Positions 1,903 through 60,266 of a stretch of 64,000 nt of DNA are shown piece after piece. The position numbers and the translations under genes were made by a program. The notes under the pieces were generated by a model, which was not told the origin of the DNA, made no database searches, and saw only the letters and a program-made list of their open reading frames with translations. This DNA is from Pseudooceanicola antarcticus. Lineage in GTDB: Bacteria; Pseudomonadota; Alphaproteobacteria; Rhodobacterales; Rhodobacteraceae. Positions within the stretch are counted from its first letter, which is position 1. Each line of letters begins with the position of its first letter. The stretch lies in contig NZ_OBEA01000002.1 in NCBI RefSeq assembly GCF_900215355.1, positions 124,001 through 188,000 on the forward strand. The letters run 5' to 3'.

Positions 1903-1937
1903 GGCCTCCGGCGGGAGTATTTTCAGCCTGGTGATGA
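1903..1937 (+). repeat. dispersed intergenic element, type I core (single copy)
   Basis: About 35 bp just after proS. The core begins GCCTCCGGCGGGAG, continues GTATTTTCAGCC and ends TGGTGATG. The same type I core recurs, in inverted orientation, at 41284-41316 (identical over 33 bp) and, with a few changes, at 23204-23236. The 5' part can form a short hairpin (CTCC/GGGAG). All copies lie between genes. This is a solitary half-element; at the other two loci it faces a type II unit. Function is unknown; it resembles REP/REPIN-type repeats in distribution. Confidence 0.8.
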
Positions 1938-7067: not shown

Positions 7068-7653
7068 ATCCTTTCGGCGTGAACAGGGGGTCCTGGTAGG
7101 AGCGGATTTCCAGCTCGATCCCGTCCGCCAGCTGGCTGGAGCGCAGCACGGAGGGGGCCGGGTGGCGATAGCAGTACTCGTTGCCATCGACCGAGGCCGC
7201 GGTGGTGTCACGGGTGGCGCCGAGGCGTTCGCAAAGCCGGATCGAGGCCAGGTTCTTGGGGTCGACGTAGGACACCGCACCCTCCCAGCCGAGCTGCTCG
7301 TAGAAGTAGCGCCGGGCGGCATGGGTGGCCTCGAGGGCGTAGCCCTTGCCGGCGGTCTCGGGCCAGATGATCCAGGCCAGCTCGGCCTCGGGCCAGGTGG
7401 CGGGCTTCCAGCCGCCGGCCATGCCAAGCGGCTTGTCCGTGATCTTGTCGTGCATCATCCACATGCCGTAGCCGCGGATCTGCCAATGGCCGATCTCGGC
7501 GGCGTAGAGCATCCAGGTCTCGTAGCCGTTCAGCGGCCCGCCCATGAAGCGCGAGCGGTAGGAGCTGAAGGTGGCCTTGAAATCCGGGTAATCCTGCGGC
7601 TCGGGGCCACGCAGGATCAGACGGTCGGTCTCGATCACGGGGATATCGGTCAT
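7054..7653 (-). CDS. GNAT N-acetyltransferase (RimJ/RimL type), fourth of four tandem copies
   Basis: A 199-residue GNAT. The family opening VIETDRLILRGPEPQD is followed by GHWQIRGYGMWMMHD, a WPEAELAWIIWPETAGKGYALEA acetyl-CoA loop region and YVDPKNLASIRLCERLGA. These blocks line up with the three genes upstream of it. It is 14 residues longer than they are at its C-terminus and overlaps chorismate mutase there. The ATG overlaps the preceding GNAT stop by 4 bp. The acceptor is unknown. Confidence 0.85.
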   Translation of the reverse strand: MTDIPVIETDRLILRGPEPQDYPDFKATFSSYRSRFMGGPLNGYETWMLYAAEIGHWQIRGYGMWMMHDKITDKPLGMAGGWKPATWPEAELAWIIWPETAGKGYALEATHAARRYFYEQLGWEGAVSYVDPKNLASIRLCERLGATRDTTAASVDGNEYCYRHPAPSVLRSSQLADGIELEIRSYQDPLFTPKGYALD

Positions 7654-8204
7654 GCGTCCCCCTTCGCCGCTGAGGGGTGGCGGTAGACCAGCACCGTGGT
7701 GCCGAAGAACTCGGGCTTCTCGCGCTCGACCGTGGCGCCGAGGCGTTCGGCCAGGGCGCGCGAGCGGGTGTTGTCCGGGTCGATGTAGGAGATCAGCCGG
7801 TCGAAGCCCCAGGTCTCGGCGGCGTAGCGGCGGGCGGTGAGCGCGGCCTCGTAGGCGAAGCCGCGGCCCTCGTGATCCGCGAAGATGTGCCAGCCGATTT
7901 CGGGCTCGTCCCATTGCAGGTGGTCGATCACGCCGACCCGGCCGACGGTCTCGCCCGAGGCCTTTTCCTGCACGGTCCACATGCCGTGGCCGCGCCACAT
8001 CCAATGGCCCATGTTCGTCAGGAAGCCGCGCCAGACCTGATCATGGTCGGTCACCGGACCGCCGAGGAACCGCATGCGATCGGCATCGCTGTTGAAGTCG
8101 CAGAGCGGGGCGAAGTCCCGCGGCTCGGGGCCGCGCAGGATCAGCCGTTCGGTCTCGAGGACCGGGATCGGCAGCTCGTGGGCGCGTTGTCCAAGGGCGG
8201 TCAT
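7650..8204 (-). CDS. GNAT N-acetyltransferase, third of four tandem copies
   Basis: A 184-residue GNAT with VLETERLILRGPEPRD, GHWMWRGHGMWTVQE, HEGRGFAYEAALTARRYAAE and YIDPDNTRSRALAERLGA. It ends with YRHPS, as do two of its paralogues. It is closest by eye to the fourth copy, sharing LILRGPEP. Start and stop both overlap their neighbours by 4 bp, so it is translationally coupled. RimJ/RimL-type enzymes acetylate N-termini of ribosomal proteins or small amines; which applies here is unknown. Confidence 0.85.
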   Translation of the reverse strand: MTALGQRAHELPIPVLETERLILRGPEPRDFAPLCDFNSDADRMRFLGGPVTDHDQVWRGFLTNMGHWMWRGHGMWTVQEKASGETVGRVGVIDHLQWDEPEIGWHIFADHEGRGFAYEAALTARRYAAETWGFDRLISYIDPDNTRSRALAERLGATVEREKPEFFGTTVLVYRHPSAAKGDA

Positions 8205-8752
8205 GCGTAGGCCTCCACGCCGCCTTCGGCCAGCGCCTCGGGGCCGGGGTGACGATAGACATGCACCGGGGTCTCATAGCCCGGAGGGGTGGCCATGCCG
8301 TCGGGCGCGGCACCCATGCGGCGGGCCACGGCGGCGGAGCCTGCGTTGTCGGCATCGACCAGCGAGATCGCGGTGGTCCAGCCCAGCACGTCATAGGCAT
8401 GGGCGCGGGCGGCCAGAGCCGCCTCGGTGGCGTAGCCGCGGCCTTCGTGGCCCTCGAAGAGGTCCCAGCCGATCTCGGCCTCGGGCCATTCCAGCGGGTT
8501 CCACAGTCCGACCATGCCGACGGTCTCTCCGGTCTCGGTCAGGTCGACCATCCAGCGACCGTAGCCGCGCAGGGTCCAGTGGCCGATCTCGGTGGCCAGC
8601 TGACGCCAGGCCATGGCGCGGGTTTTGGGCCCGCCGACGAAGGCAGAGCGCTCGGAGGCGTAGAAGGTGACCAGCGTATCGACATCCTGGGGGTCGGGGG
8701 CGCGCAGGGTCAGCCGTTCGGTGGTCAGGGTGGGGATGGTGACTGCGGTCAT
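8201..8752 (-). CDS. GNAT N-acetyltransferase, second of four tandem copies
   Basis: A 183-residue GNAT. The visible blocks are TLTTERLTLRAPDPQD, GHWTLRGYGRWMVDL, WPEAEIGWDLFEGHEGRGYATEA and LVDADNAGSAAVARRMGA. I chose the ATG at 8752 (MTAVTIPTL), which overlaps the preceding GNAT stop by 4 bp; the frame extends upstream only as a shadow. It ends in a short acidic/alanine tail. Confidence 0.85.
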   Translation of the reverse strand: MTAVTIPTLTTERLTLRAPDPQDVDTLVTFYASERSAFVGGPKTRAMAWRQLATEIGHWTLRGYGRWMVDLTETGETVGMVGLWNPLEWPEAEIGWDLFEGHEGRGYATEAALAARAHAYDVLGWTTAISLVDADNAGSAAVARRMGAAPDGMATPPGYETPVHVYRHPGPEALAEGGVEAYA

Positions 8753-9303
8753 TGCAGGCCCTCCAGCAATTTGCGGCCCGCGACGGTGCGCGGCAGGTGA
8801 CGCCAGATCCGCATGTCGCCGGCCATCCGGTGGTGGAACATGCCCTCGGAGCGCGCGCCGAGGCGCTTGACCATGGCGATGGAGCGGTCGTTCTCGGGGT
8901 CCACGAGGCTGATGCAGGAGGCCCAGCCCTTGTCCTGGAACAGCCAGTCGAGCACGCCGCGCGCGGCTTCGGTGGCATAGCCCTTGCCCTCGGCGCCGTC
9001 GAGCAGCTGCCAGGAGAGCTCGGGCTCGGGCCAGCCGCGCGGGAACCAGGGGCCGACAAGGCCCACGTCGAGGTCGGTCTCGCGGTCGATCACCGCGAAA
9101 TGGCCGTAGCCGCGCAGGTGCCAGTGACCGATGATGGTGGCGATGGACCACCAGGCGGCTTCCTCGTCGGGGTGCTGGTCGACGAAGAGGCGGGCGCCGG
9201 GCATCAGGTAGGCGGCGACCGGGTCGAACTCGGGCGAGGCGGGGCAGACCAGGCGCAGGCGCTCTGTCTCGATGATGGGCCAGGAGGGAGCGGAGGCGAT
9301 CAT
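8749..9303 (-). CDS. GNAT N-acetyltransferase, first of four tandem copies
   Basis: A 184-residue GNAT with IIETERLRLVCPASPEFD, GHWHLRGYGHFAVID, WPEPELSWQLLDGAEGKGYATEA and LVDPENDRSIAMVKRLGA. It is the most divergent of the four (its C-terminus lacks YRHP and reads RIWRHLP). Its own Shine-Dalgarno GGGAGGA precedes the ATG, while the next three genes rely on 4-bp overlaps, so this is the entry point of the array. It starts 173 bp after ffh. Confidence 0.85.
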   Translation of the reverse strand: MIASAPSWPIIETERLRLVCPASPEFDPVAAYLMPGARLFVDQHPDEEAAWWSIATIIGHWHLRGYGHFAVIDRETDLDVGLVGPWFPRGWPEPELSWQLLDGAEGKGYATEAARGVLDWLFQDKGWASCISLVDPENDRSIAMVKRLGARSEGMFHHRMAGDMRIWRHLPRTVAGRKLLEGLQ

Positions 9304-10987: not shown

Positions 10988-11340
10988 GCCCCGGCCCTCC
11001 TGCGGCCTTCGTGAAGTGCGTTGCCCTCCACTTGGGTGGAGGAGGTGAAAAGCTCAACCACCGGGAGGGTGGTCAGATCGGTCTGTGGTCCCGAGGCCTG
11101 CGCCGGAAGCACAAAGGTCAAGCGCACCAGTGGGCGCAACGCGCTGACTGGTGGCGATCCCCGCATAAGGCGATGGGACCGGAATCATTATGGACTCCGG
11201 GTATTGGCGGCGCGTTTACGCCCGCCCGGTGAGCGAGTCAACCCGGACGGGCGCCGGCAGGGCAGGAGACACCCGGCCGGAACCGGGCGTGCTTGCGCCC
11301 GGCAGCACGGCGCGGGACGGGGAGACCCGGCCGGCTATTG
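10988..11340. other. 353-bp intergenic region upstream of ffh
   Basis: No gene is convincing here. Two hairpins lie close to ffh: CCTCCAC/GTGGAGG (11025-11042) and ACCACC/GGTGGT (11057-11073). Both could sit in the ffh 5' leader. Near the other end, GGAGACACCCGGCCGG and GGAGACCCGGCCGG form a degenerate direct repeat (about 11265-11331), with a CCGGGCG/CGCCCGG stem-loop between them (11283-11302) that may end the small gene at 11341. No tRNA or 4.5S RNA signature was found. Confidence 0.5.
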
Positions 11341-18802: not shown

Positions 18803-18892
18803 GGTCTGCACACCCGCTCTCGGCCAGGGCCTTCCGCCCGGCAGGCCGGGCGCAAGACCGCAACCGGCGCTGGTCCTTTCCCCATCCGACGG

Positions 18893-18943
18893 CCAGCAAT
18901 ACTGCGGGGGAGACAGGCGCAGCCTGGCGGGGGCAGAGCCCCC
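18893..18943 (-). repeat. dispersed intergenic element, type II unit (reverse)
   Basis: Read on the plus strand: AATACTGCGGGGGAGA, then a hairpin CAGGC-GCA-GCCTG (18914-18926), then a second hairpin GGGGGC-AGA-GCCCCC (18929-18943). The order core, variable hairpin, GC hairpin is that of the elements at 23257-23317 and 41124-41187 (opposite orientation), but the variable hairpin has a different sequence. It lies between two GNAT genes. Confidence 0.75.
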
Positions 18944-22700: not shown

Positions 22701-23184
22701 GGGCCGCGAGCGCCTGCTGACCGCCTTCGAGCAGGTGAACACCAATTTCTCGCTGCTCTTCCGTCACCTCTTCAACGGTGGCGAGGCCAACCTGGTGCTG
22801 GTGGAAAGCGACGATCCGCTGGACGCGGGCCTGGAAATCATGTGTCAGCCGCCGGGCAAGAAGCTCTCGACGCTGTCACTGCTCTCGGGCGGCGAGCAGA
22901 CCCTGACGGCCATGGCGCTGATCTTCGCGGTCTTCCTGGCCAACCCGGCGCCGATCTGCGTGCTCGACGAGGTCGACGCGCCGCTCGACGATGCCAACGT
23001 GACCCGCTTCTGCGACATGCTGGACGAGATGTGCCGCCGCACCGATACCCGCTTCCTGATCATCACCCACCACGCGGTGACCATGGCCCGCATGGATCGC
23101 CTCTTCGGTGTGACGATGCAGGAACAGGGCGTCAGCCAGCTGGTCTCGGTCGATCTGAAGAAGGCCGAGCAGCTGGTCGCCTGA
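19729..23184 (+). CDS. smc: chromosome segregation ATPase SMC
   Basis: A 1151-residue condensin-type ATPase that organises and segregates the nucleoid with ScpA/ScpB. The Walker A GPNGCGKS is at about residues 31-38. Two very long Ala/Glu/Arg coiled coils flank a hinge around residues 500-640. The C-terminal head has the ABC signature LLSGGEQTLTAM (about 1052) and Walker B VLDEVDAPLDD (about 1078). The start is TTG 19729 (HFSRLRLTGFKSF), placed 9 bp after GAAGGA; no ATG is in frame there. scpA and scpB are not adjacent. The antisense 793-codon open frame is a shadow. Confidence 0.95.
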   Translation: MHFSRLRLTGFKSFVDPTDLMINTGLTGVVGPNGCGKSNLLEALRWVMGENRPTAMRGGGMEDVIFAGAASRPARNFAEVTLHIDNSDRLAPAGFNDEDQIEIVRRITRDVGSAYKANAKDVRARDVQMLFADASTGAHSPALVRQGQISELINAKPKNRRRILEEAAGISGLYQRRHEAELKLKGAEQNLTRVDDVIEQLATQLASLERQARQAARYRAIGAELRQAEGMLLYRRWREADEARNAALGAFRESSTLASQAERAARTAAESRQQLEDQLPPKREEEAIAAAVLQRLTVQRDSLGAEKERAMQQILTLKARIEQLVRDREREAGLNKDAGETIERLDWEAREIAKAHEGHDARLAEAVELATEAASVLSDREADLAELTEDVARLAARHQSAQRLLEDSRKSAERSEAEALKARDAVAEARGRTAAADEAFEQAQEGEEIARARVEAAEETQAEAEAARAEAQSDEADARAARSSAEGEAKALQAEVSALARLVQRDASEGAQLLDDVRVDPGFEKALGAALADDLRAPVVGGEEVSGWVDLPGYDRAQALPAGVAPLAAHVQVPGVLARRMSQIGVVEPSEGAALQSALQPGQRLVSRDGDLWRWDGYRSGAEDAPSAAALRLEQMNRLDALRADLEAAEERAEGARMAHEDLAEALSRASEADKAARQARAEADRQLTEAARALSRAEADRSLAASRAESLAQSVARHEEEALEARARLREAEAAVEDLEDLDEARSGIEQLRMAVEAARMAMMSRRTAHDEIRREGDARTRRRQEVAKEVSGWRHRLESADKRIAELDERRAEAEAQLEEAQAEPEELEMQREELTEAMEEAEERRARAADALALAEAALREAVAGERDAERTASEAREGRARAEARAESAAEAVTQAAERIAEVLEQTPKQLLETLDMAVEDMPASDQVEADVNRLKRQRDSLGAVNLRAEEDAQEVREEHDTLVAEKADLEEAIRALRNGISGLNREGRERLLTAFEQVNTNFSLLFRHLFNGGEANLVLVESDDPLDAGLEIMCQPPGKKLSTLSLLSGGEQTLTAMALIFAVFLANPAPICVLDEVDAPLDDANVTRFCDMLDEMCRRTDTRFLIITHHAVTMARMDRLFGVTMQEQGVSQLVSVDLKKAEQLVA

Positions 23185-23203: not shown

Positions 23204-23317
23204 GCCTCCGGCGGGAGTATTTCCGGCCCGGTGATGGAACAAGGCGCTCCTATTCCCATCACCAGGCTGAAAATACTCCGGGGGAGTCTCCGGTACGGAG
23301 ACGGGGGCAGCGCCCCC
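23204..23317. repeat. dispersed element doublet (type I forward + type II reverse)
   Basis: Type I core (GCCTCCGGCGGGAG ... GGTGATG) at 23204-23236 faces, across about 20 bp, an inverted type II unit at 23257-23317: CATCACCAGGCTG, AAAATACTCCGGGGG, a variable hairpin GTCTCCG-GTA-CGGAGAC (23286-23302) and a GC hairpin GGGGGC-AGC-GCCCCC (23303-23317). It is followed by an imperfect GGCCTTTTCCC/GGGGAAAGGCC hairpin (23321-23357). It lies between the convergent smc and lytic transglycosylase genes, where these hairpins could also end transcripts. Confidence 0.8.
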
Positions 23318-36850: not shown

Positions 36851-36887
36851 AGAGGCAAAGGCGCTGCAAACCGCGCCCCTTGCCTCT
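36851..36887 (-). other. long hairpin downstream of mcd
   Basis: Stem AGAGGCAA/TTGCCTCT continued inward by GGCGC/GCGCC with a small bulge. It lies about 85 bp after the mcd stop and has no T-tract. Possibly a transcript end or stabiliser. Confidence 0.45.
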
Positions 36888-36900
36888 ATCCGACGGCTCG

Positions 36901-36931
36901 AAATACTGCGGGGGTCCGGGGGCTGGCCCCC
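36901..36931 (-). repeat. dispersed intergenic element, short type II unit without variable hairpin
   Basis: AAATACTGCGGGGG is followed by GGGGGC-TG-GCCCCC (36918-36931). Compared with 18893, 23257 and 41124, the middle variable hairpin is missing. It is in the mcd 3' flank. Confidence 0.6.
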
Positions 36932-40977: not shown

Positions 40978-41355
40978 GTCAGGTCCTTCTGAGCTGTCCG
41001 CTGCGGGGTGGGGGGAATCGGCGGCCTGGGGCCACCCTATTCAAGTCGCGGCCTTATGACAGGGGCAGGTCTGCCGCAATGGGCCACCTGAGGCGGAGAT
41101 GATCTTCTCGGGGGCAATGTAGCGGGGGCGCTGCCCCCGTCGAGCAGGGCTCGACTCCCCCGGAGTATTTTCAGCCTGGTGATGATGGCTGGGGGGCGCC
41201 AAGAAGGCTCCCTCCTTCTCCGTGAAGAGCGTGCCACGGCCCCGGTTGAGAAGGAGGGAGCCCATCCGGGCAGGGGCCCGCTGCATCACCAGGCTGAAAA
41301 TACTCCCGCCGGAGGCATGGCCCGGAATGGGCCGGCTCCGCGGGCTGTCCTGGTC
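40978..41355. other. 378-bp intergenic region carrying a composite repeat
   Basis: Most of this gap between two minus-strand genes is the element described at 41124-41316. The rest (40978-41123) is upstream sequence of the RimB-RimK gene without a recognisable feature. Confidence 0.6.
41124..41316. repeat. dispersed element doublet (type II forward + type I reverse) with internal palindrome
   Basis: Type II unit: GC hairpin GGGGGC-GCT-GCCCCC (41124-41138), variable hairpin GTCGAGC-AGG-GCTCGAC (41139-41155), then TCCCCCGGAG and the TATTTTCAGCC...GGTGATG core to 41187. An inverted type I core is at 41284-41316. Between them is a perfect 15-bp inverted repeat: GGCTCCCTCCTTCTC (41206-41220) and GAGAAGGAGGGAGCC (41248-41262). 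The reverse complement of this doublet matches the arrangement at 23204-23317. It contains no gene. Confidence 0.8.
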
Positions 41356-59018: not shown

Positions 59019-59048
59019 GCGTCGGTACAACGTCGGTATTACGTCGGT
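59019..59048. repeat. 11-bp tandem repeat (3 units), second locus
   Basis: Units at 59019 (GCGTCGGT), 59030 and 59041 (ACGTCGGT), spaced exactly 11 bp. Same octamer and period as at 2439-2482. It lies between the nfuA promoter and the 3' end of the universal stress protein gene. Confidence 0.85.
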
Positions 59049-59674: not shown

Positions 59675-60076
<402 letters not shown>

Positions 60077-60266
60077 ATATTCTGATGCATCGCTTTTTCT
60101 CGAGCTGAGAGGGAACCCGCCCACGGCGGGCGCGCCCTGAGCCATTCCCCGCCAATGGTCGGGGGGAGGGGGCCTGAGCGTCGGGAACGCGCGGCCTCGG
60201 GCGGTGTTGTGGGAGTACAAGCCCTCGCCGGAAGCGGGGAGCGACAGTTCCACCAGGAGACTTTCC

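Follow-up and report, generated by a model that had tools for sequence, protein, structure and literature searches.

The window analyzed in this study is a stretch of 64,000 nucleotides from Pseudooceanicola antarcticus (Rhodobacteraceae; contig NZ_OBEA01000002.1, positions 124,001 to 188,000). After the gene smc, whose stop codon ends at position 23184 of the window, it carries a palindromic element that recurs elsewhere in the window. A sequence-only reading had described this repeat as a dispersed intergenic element with a covarying hairpin, represented by three copies and by a fourth, at 36901-36931, from which that hairpin is missing. The coordinates, 3-nt loops and hairpins of these copies were all verified in the sequence. 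Relatives of smc in Oceanicola sp. S124 (95%) and Pseudooceanicola marinus (91%) agree with placement in the genus Pseudooceanicola.

Architecture of the element

Two kinds of unit were recognized. In the orientation of the gene upstream, a type-1 unit starts with hairpin 1 (GGGGGC-NNN-GCCCCC) and continues with the variable hairpin 2 and TCCCCC; a core, for example GGAGTATTT, and a tail follow. In type-2 units GCCTCCGGCG replaces the hairpins, and core and tail are identical in kind. Two tails occur side by side in this genome, A (GGAGTATTTTCAGCCTGGTGATG) and B (GCAGTATTTTCAGCCGTCGGATAG). The earlier description gave the modules in reverse order (core, variable hairpin, GGGGGC hairpin), the true order being GGGGGC hairpin, variable hairpin, CCCCC, core and tail; what it took for the core is no more than the beginning of a conserved tail, GGAGTATTTTCAGCCTGGTGATG or GCAGTATTTTCAGCCGTCGGATAG, which it had missed. 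It had also placed the element at 23257..23317. A type-1 unit is indeed located there, but the whole object is an inverted pair, in which a second, simpler unit (GCCTCCGGCG, core and tail) faces the first at 23214. The copy at 41139-41155 is a type-1 unit as well, but it lies on the opposite strand from the copy at 23286-23302 and belongs to another inverted pair, its simpler partner facing it at 41298. The window holds these two pairs (23204-23317 and 41124-41316) and three solo units (Table 1). Its five occurrences of GGAGTATTT compare with 0.04 expected.

Table 1. Units of the element, their parts, and RNA genes in the window
Feature	Position	Strand	Basis
Solo type-2 unit, tail A; ordinary hairpin and T-rich terminator from ~1940	1904..1936	+	
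Solo type-1 unit, tail B; core 18897-18905; hairpin 2 CAGGC/GCA/GCCTG at ~18914-18926, one mismatched pair further out	18883..18942	-	
Facing type-2 unit after smc: GCCTCCGGCG, GGAGTATTT (23214-23222) and tail CCGGCCCGGTGATG	23204..23236	+	
Short palindromic interior of inverted pair, 57-nt form	23237..23256	no strand	
Dialect-A tail TCAGCCTGGTGATG	23257..23270	-	
CCCCC (23280-23284) and core GGAGTATTT (23271-23279) of type-1 unit	23271..23284	-	
Hairpin 2, variable palindrome GTCTCCG/GTA/CGGAGAC	23286..23302	-	covariation, covariance model
Hairpin 1 of type-1 unit, GGGGGC-GCT-GCCCCC on element strand	23303..23317	-	
Solo unit, tail B, with hairpin-1-like GGGGGCCAGCCCCC and without hairpin 2; core 36901-36909	36887..36931	-	
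Type-1 unit: hairpin 1, hairpin 2 GTCGAGC/AGG/GCTCGAC (41139-41155), CCCCC, core 41162-41170, tail A 41171-41184	41124..41184	+	
Long palindromic interior of inverted pair, 136-nt spacing	41185..41283	no strand	
Facing type-2 unit: tail A 41284-41297, core 41298-41306, head 41307-41316	41284..41316	-	
ffh sRNA (RF01793)	11117-11168	-	Rfam
Bacterial class A RNase P (RF00010)	59677-60078	+	Rfam

On the contig that contains the window (C8), we identified 47 copies, including 32 of type 1 and 15 of type 2. Of the 32 type-1 copies, which were gathered without requiring GGGGCNNNGCCCC, 29 have this sequence in the 75 nt that precede the core. This is the fair figure for the constancy of hairpin 1, since the full type-1 pattern requires GGGGCNNNGCCCC and CCCCC by definition, and hairpin 1 is constant in both covariation alignments discussed below by construction or by the choice of best-scoring copies. 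Fourteen facing inverted pairs were observed (11 A-A and 3 B-B), never combining the two tail families within a pair, and with spacings of 57/58 nt (3 pairs), 132-154 nt (10 pairs) and 225 nt (1 pair). Pair interiors are palindromic, and related interiors recur at different loci; 19 of the 47 copies lie outside facing pairs. The build of the element is modular: a near-constant hairpin 1, an exchangeable palindrome as hairpin 2, and a TATTT core that leads into a dialect tail; an inverted partner is often present.

Copy number, tail dialects and gene ends

Throughout the 4.2 Mb genome of P. antarcticus, the tail-A pattern gave 148 matches (at most 2 mismatches) and the full type-1 architecture 127 copies, with no match to the reversed pattern in either case. 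A chance origin was rejected on the basis of the excess of GGAGTATTT and the lack of reversed-control matches. Type-1 analyses of this genome rest on 100 listed copies of the 127. A covariance model was trained on 25 distinct copies of the genome, each 44 nt long; the four window copies, which were not among them, were recovered with E values of 3e-15, 1.7e-13, 4.2e-12 and 1e-5. A search of the genome and its relatives with such a model, the check proposed in the sequence-only reading, gave matches at E 1e-4 in 84 of the 120 genomes examined from the family, own genome included. Restriction of the match to the original loci, which had been named as a refuting case, is excluded by these genomes and by the 127 own-genome copies. 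In a class-wide sample of 58 genomes, the only match was in the own genome, and none of the 57 others, one of them a family member, was matched; both model searches scored limited candidates per genome, so that their copy counts are lower bounds. The type-2 motif was detected in 109 of 248 family genomes, with 2 control matches, and genomes of the genus held about 20 to 200 copies each by the patterns used. The type-1 architecture is kept in copies from 29 other genera, in which the three letters before TATTT differ (GAG, AGG, GGA, CGG) and the tail often resembles CAAGATGAAG or CAAGAAGAAG.

Matches were also found in 7 of 72,556 plasmid records, including Rhodobacterales plasmids. Five of these were inspected, and the copies lay in convergent gaps at 3 of the 4 places with annotation. 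On plasmid pAMI6 of Paracoccus aminophilus (L258, ~1365-1530), two facing type-1 units have their own hairpins each, the tail GAACATGAAAGAC, and the cores GGGATATTT and GAGGATATTT; thus, a different genus shows a dialect of its own on plasmid DNA. None of 50,697 phage records was matched, and a phage-borne signal was rejected. A literature search that included the motif letters yielded no description of the element among the matches listed.

Tail dialects were compared across genomes of the genus; the figures hold among the matches listed, and the dialect pattern requires AGTATTT. The tail GGAAAGATGA was present in 23 of 26 listed rows of genome G005, and two of the other three rows resemble chance matches. 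Tails were mostly GGCAAGATGAAG in G015, mostly GGCCAGATGA in G012 and G001 (the latter with GAAG in the core), and mostly GGCAAGATGA with GAAG in G016, where three listed GGAG copies have GCAAGAAGAAG. G003 has mostly tail A, plus B and relatives, and several dialects (GACAAGGTGAAG, GACGACGTGAAG, GCTGTCGGATG and GCCATCGTATG) were found in G017 and G021. For G014, the AGTATTT pattern gave three apparent chance matches; variant copies nonetheless exist. At least two dialects are present at once in the P. antarcticus genome (G000), G003, G010, G017 and G021. The second position of the core is coupled to the tail: in P. antarcticus, A occurs with GG in 35 of 36 rows and B with GC in 11 of 12 (5 of 53 rows were unclassified and dropped), and in G010, TCGG occurs with GC in 4 of 4 and TCGAA with GG or AG in 8 of 8 (15 of 53 dropped likewise). 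At the site on the 3′ side of smc, the element is present in 9 of 22 genus genomes (G000, G001, G003, G010, G012, G014, G016, G017 and G021). In eight of these nine, the kind of tail matches other listed copies of the same genome (in G003, a minor kind); G014, the ninth, is unassigned.

The element adjoins the 3′ ends of genes and is nearly missing from divergent gaps. By gene positions predicted with a simple codon-usage caller, the 47 copies on C8 include 23 in convergent gaps, 23 in tandem gaps, 1 overlapping a gene call and none in divergent gaps, which account for 29% of the intergenic length. The genome of a related species, G010, was used for comparison (contig C35, same gene caller); 19 of its 40 copies are in convergent gaps, 2 in divergent gaps, and 1 overlaps a gene call. 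Orientation bias is weak: copies in tandem gaps run with or against the upstream gene in a ratio of 15/8 on C8 and 10/8 in G010.

A pattern scan for canonical terminators (a hairpin followed directly by at least 5 T in 8) detected none at either paired site of the window, where hairpin 2 ends ~10 nt ahead of a run of 3-4 T. No depletion of canonical terminators was found beside the element: they occur at 7 of 37 element-bearing ends versus 19 of 204 other ends (shuffled regions, 2 of 241), that is, 4/22 versus 9/70 in convergent gaps (p 0.50) and 3/15 versus 10/134 in tandem gaps (p 0.13). At the seven ends with both, the terminator precedes the element in five and follows it in two, in one of these inside the pair interior. 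At 1904-1936 an ordinary terminator follows the element, and G010, which is without the element there, has kept the hairpin and T-run. The canonical terminator as the whole explanation of the element was rejected, given its absence from the paired sites and the lack of depletion.

Hairpin 2 and the history of the sites

The covariation reported for hairpin 2 is strong, both in the own genome and in other genera. In the own genome, with 25 distinct copies among the 28 that are 44 nt long, 97.8% of cells are paired, with 38 two-sided, no one-sided and 6 unpaired differences, and its significance is clear, in that none of 500 shuffles reached the covariation score. For other genera, an alignment of 33 distinct rows (29 loci), fitted to the covariance model with best-scoring copies only, has 98.3% paired, with 34 two-sided, no one-sided and 6 unpaired differences. 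Stems with 5 or more pairs form in 78% of 64 segments, and in 31% of 730 chimaeras made by exchanging arms among copies of the same length.

RNA helices normally drift via G-U pairs. In hairpin 2, these account for 2 of 606 pairs among the 100 listed own-genome copies and for 2 of 195 in the copies from other genera. By comparison, where gene ends on the same contig have no element, G-U makes up 225 of 2138 pairs (10.5%) of the hairpins there; this control took the best hairpin per region, and its own figure for hairpin 2 was 0/408 from 62 of the 100 copies. Because G-U pairs are nearly missing, whatever constrains or regenerates hairpin 2 seems to act on DNA, or on both strands, and not on RNA alone. 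The sequence-only reading had proposed a structure in RNA or in single-stranded DNA; a constraint on RNA only is unlikely.

Comparison with G010 provided a view of the same hairpins at orthologous sites. Among 20 site- and strand-matched copies of hairpin 2, judged by eye, the stem was kept in 6, swapped whole in 6, changed without restoration in 7 (6 broken, 1 G-U) and compensated in a single case (site 296390, A-T to C-G). In addition, two hairpin-2 segments were found with both core types. Since orthologues are swapped whole or changed without restoration, covariation among copies may in good part record the exchange of ready-made palindromes. Change of the middle segment without restored pairing, which the sequence-only reading had regarded as refuting, does occur at these 7 of 20 hairpins, and most copies still pair. 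Its conclusion from compensatory change, that a structure and not the primary sequence is under selection, is weakened: the covariation is real, but the orthologues, the scarcity of G-U pairs and the conservation of all other parts (hairpin 1, CCCCC, TATTT and tail) as primary sequence argue against so simple a view.

Sites are largely kept between the two species, while the sequences they carry can be exchanged. A syntenic gap in the G010 stretch was found for 24 of the 31 gaps on C8 that contain an element, and 7 have none; 22 of the 24 keep the element (19 detected by regular expression and 3 by eye: 160723, 518143 and 641193), and it is missing at 125880 and 269757. The latter is a clear case of presence and absence (gap of 192 vs 69 nt), with no evident target duplication in a poorly alignable region. 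At site 309949 the heads are constant and the pair block differs (A-A, 145 nt vs B-B, 67 nt). Both tails differ at site 89138 (GCAG..TCGGAT vs GGAG..TCGAAT), where the interior is nearly unchanged, and one tail differs at 291867. Because sites are kept while tails and blocks switch, positions seem to be older than the sequences they carry, suggesting concerted evolution at fixed sites.

Interpretation and relation to known systems

We consider it probable that the element represents a dispersed mosaic palindromic repeat family of Rhodobacteraceae, similar to repetitive extragenic palindromic (REP) sequences and bacterial interspersed mosaic elements (BIMEs), and under concerted evolution. Within a given genome, recombination or short-tract conversion among the many copies would homogenize them at the level of DNA, possibly aided by template switching inside palindromes; a factor reading the tail would be another route. 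They may persist where promoters stay undisturbed and where a hairpin on both strands is tolerated or useful; possible uses include 3′-end protection, a block to read-through and relief of supercoiling between converging genes. In the simplest view, the tail would be either the recognition sequence of a putative factor or a by-product of homogenization.

Several observations weigh against this interpretation. The REP tag GTAG is absent from the element, and the Y1 transposase of REP systems (REP-associated tyrosine transposase, RAYT; PF01797) was detected in none of 15 genus genomes, including the own genome, with no search made for other transposases; the same PF01797 search did give matches elsewhere, in 3 of 9 further genomes of the class and in 5 of 14 used as controls. 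A mobile REP accompanied by RAYT was rejected for this reason. The long stems of inverted pairs contain 48 G-U pairs among 643 on the sense strand, so that the argument for constraint at the DNA level rests on hairpin 2 only, and the two tail arms of a pair differ by 0-5 of 24 letters without compensation. At site 89138, two changed tails around a kept interior are unexplained by one conversion tract. Finally, the family-wide architecture suggests a positive host function.

BIMEs lie on the 3′ side of genes, and elements of the ERIC, NEMIS and miniature inverted-repeat transposable element (MITE) type have inverted terminal repeats around a palindromic interior. The present family shares with REP, BIME and REPIN sequences of E. 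coli and Pseudomonas its many short palindromic extragenic copies beside genes, inverted pairs and mosaic structure, as described in parts of PMC3116915 and PMC3733652. However, it has no GTAG or CGTC tag (its cores being GGAG, GCAG, GAAG or AGAG before TATTT, and in other genera also GAGG, GGGA or GCGG), no RAYT was found in the 15 genus genomes searched, and it combines one near-constant and one exchangeable hairpin with a 12-15 nt tail in species dialects. Without tag and RAYT, it is not a REP member by these criteria. The dialects of Neisseriaceae DNA uptake sequences (DUS) are also comparable, being uniform within a species and different between species, and occurring in inverted pairs and at gene ends (part of PMC3630211). 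The same portion of that source gives 2245-5918 copies for several DUS dialects, whereas the present element has about 20 to 200 copies per genus genome, 46 of the 47 C8 copies are intergenic, and its tail belongs to a longer hairpin element; the low copy number (148 tail-A matches per 4.2 Mb) indicates that it is not a DUS. Its paired units resemble the ERIC, NEMIS and MITE type (named in a section of PMC3116915) in that inverted terminal repeats surround a palindromic interior, but solo units are common and positions are stable between two species. Like Rho-independent terminators, it has GC-rich hairpins 3′ of genes followed by a T-containing segment; however, the T-run is shorter and lies farther from hairpin 2 than such a terminator requires, conservation extends beyond it, and ordinary terminators coexist with the element, which at the two paired window sites does not have the structure of an intrinsic terminator.

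Four other explanations were weighed against the interpretation as a homogenized repeat family. A putative lineage-specific DNA (or RNA) binding factor could read TATTT and tail, with dialects arising from co-evolution of factor and sites, as for DUS with ComP. This is a tentative but serious possibility, consistent with tails that are near-uniform in several genomes and differ between species (GGAAAGATGA in G005, GGCAAGATGA in most listed G016 rows), with the coupling of core position 2 to the tail in P. antarcticus and G010, and with the parallel difference at both tails of site 89138, where little else changed. Yet the coupling equally follows from common descent of copies, and five genomes hold at least two dialects at once. 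In its broader form, it would be a previously undescribed gene-end recognition code, in which a hairpin module and tail are served by a putative lineage-specific trans-acting factor, factor and sites co-evolve, and dialects switch in place; we regard this as doubtful. A REP/BIME-like family and a factor that reads its dialects are not mutually exclusive. A family of bidirectional terminators, in which hairpins and UAUUU end transcription of the upstream gene, on both strands in pairs, appears unlikely. The position 3′ of genes and between converging genes, the strong hairpins and the short U-run in the core are as expected for it, and in another genus (L241, 1501-1558) head-to-head type-2 units with a long GC stem between AAATA and TATTT resemble a bidirectional terminator; but paired window sites are without a canonical terminator, with hairpin 2 ending ~10 nt before 3-4 T, canonical terminators are not depleted at element-bearing ends, and the conserved tail past the end point is left without explanation.

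Still less likely is a non-autonomous mobile element (MITE or REPIN) that is served in trans by a putative transposase and would have its terminal inverted repeats in the tails. Inverted pairs spaced at standard distances, interiors that are related from locus to locus, the presence/absence at 269757 and the seven plasmid records point to such mobility. On the other hand, 22 of 24 sites are common to two species, no target duplication is evident at 269757, PF01797 is missing from all 15 genus genomes, 19 of 47 C8 copies lie outside facing pairs, and tails change in place. The least probable of these explanations is a classical structured RNA, such as a regulatory RNA of the 3′-UTR with compensatory evolution. 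Significant covariation and the 3′ position agree with it, but hairpin 2 is almost without G-U pairs, unrestored change outnumbers compensation between orthologues, and at 5 of 37 ends the element lies beyond a canonical terminator. At gathering score, Rfam matched only RNase P and ffh in the whole window and nothing at the element, and with lax filters gave only sub-threshold chance matches at 41100-41340; a known Rfam RNA was rejected on these grounds.

Short dispersed repeats of bacteria are usually ascribed to a transposase or to DNA uptake, and neither cause was found for this family. With tens to ~200 copies per genome that share a spelling, another spelling in related species, and largely fixed sites, it offers a natural system for the homogenization of short dispersed sequences. 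It also illustrates that covariation of a hairpin among paralogous copies is no proof of an RNA structure, and that G-U pairs should be sought and orthologues compared. The 3′ sides of genes in a large bacterial family are marked by a signal that has gone unread.

Some minor features of the sequence were also noted. A GANTC site (CcrM methylation) at 23284-23288 lies at the base of hairpin 2, as in 49 of the 100 listed type-1 copies; its N follows the stem, and this placement cannot be told apart from an effect of stem composition. GANTC is scarce on the contig (580 observed vs ~2265 expected from base composition). GTCGGT recurs every 11 bases, as helically phased direct repeats, at 2441-2479 and 59021-59048 of the window, the only places on C8 with arrays of at least three at precisely this spacing, and a similar spaced CGGTAT array was observed on the 3′ side of smc in G016. 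In addition, related segments occur up to four times at ~7217-9282 of the window, with a spacing of 518-575 nt and 60-91% identity, and perhaps represent tandem paralogous genes.
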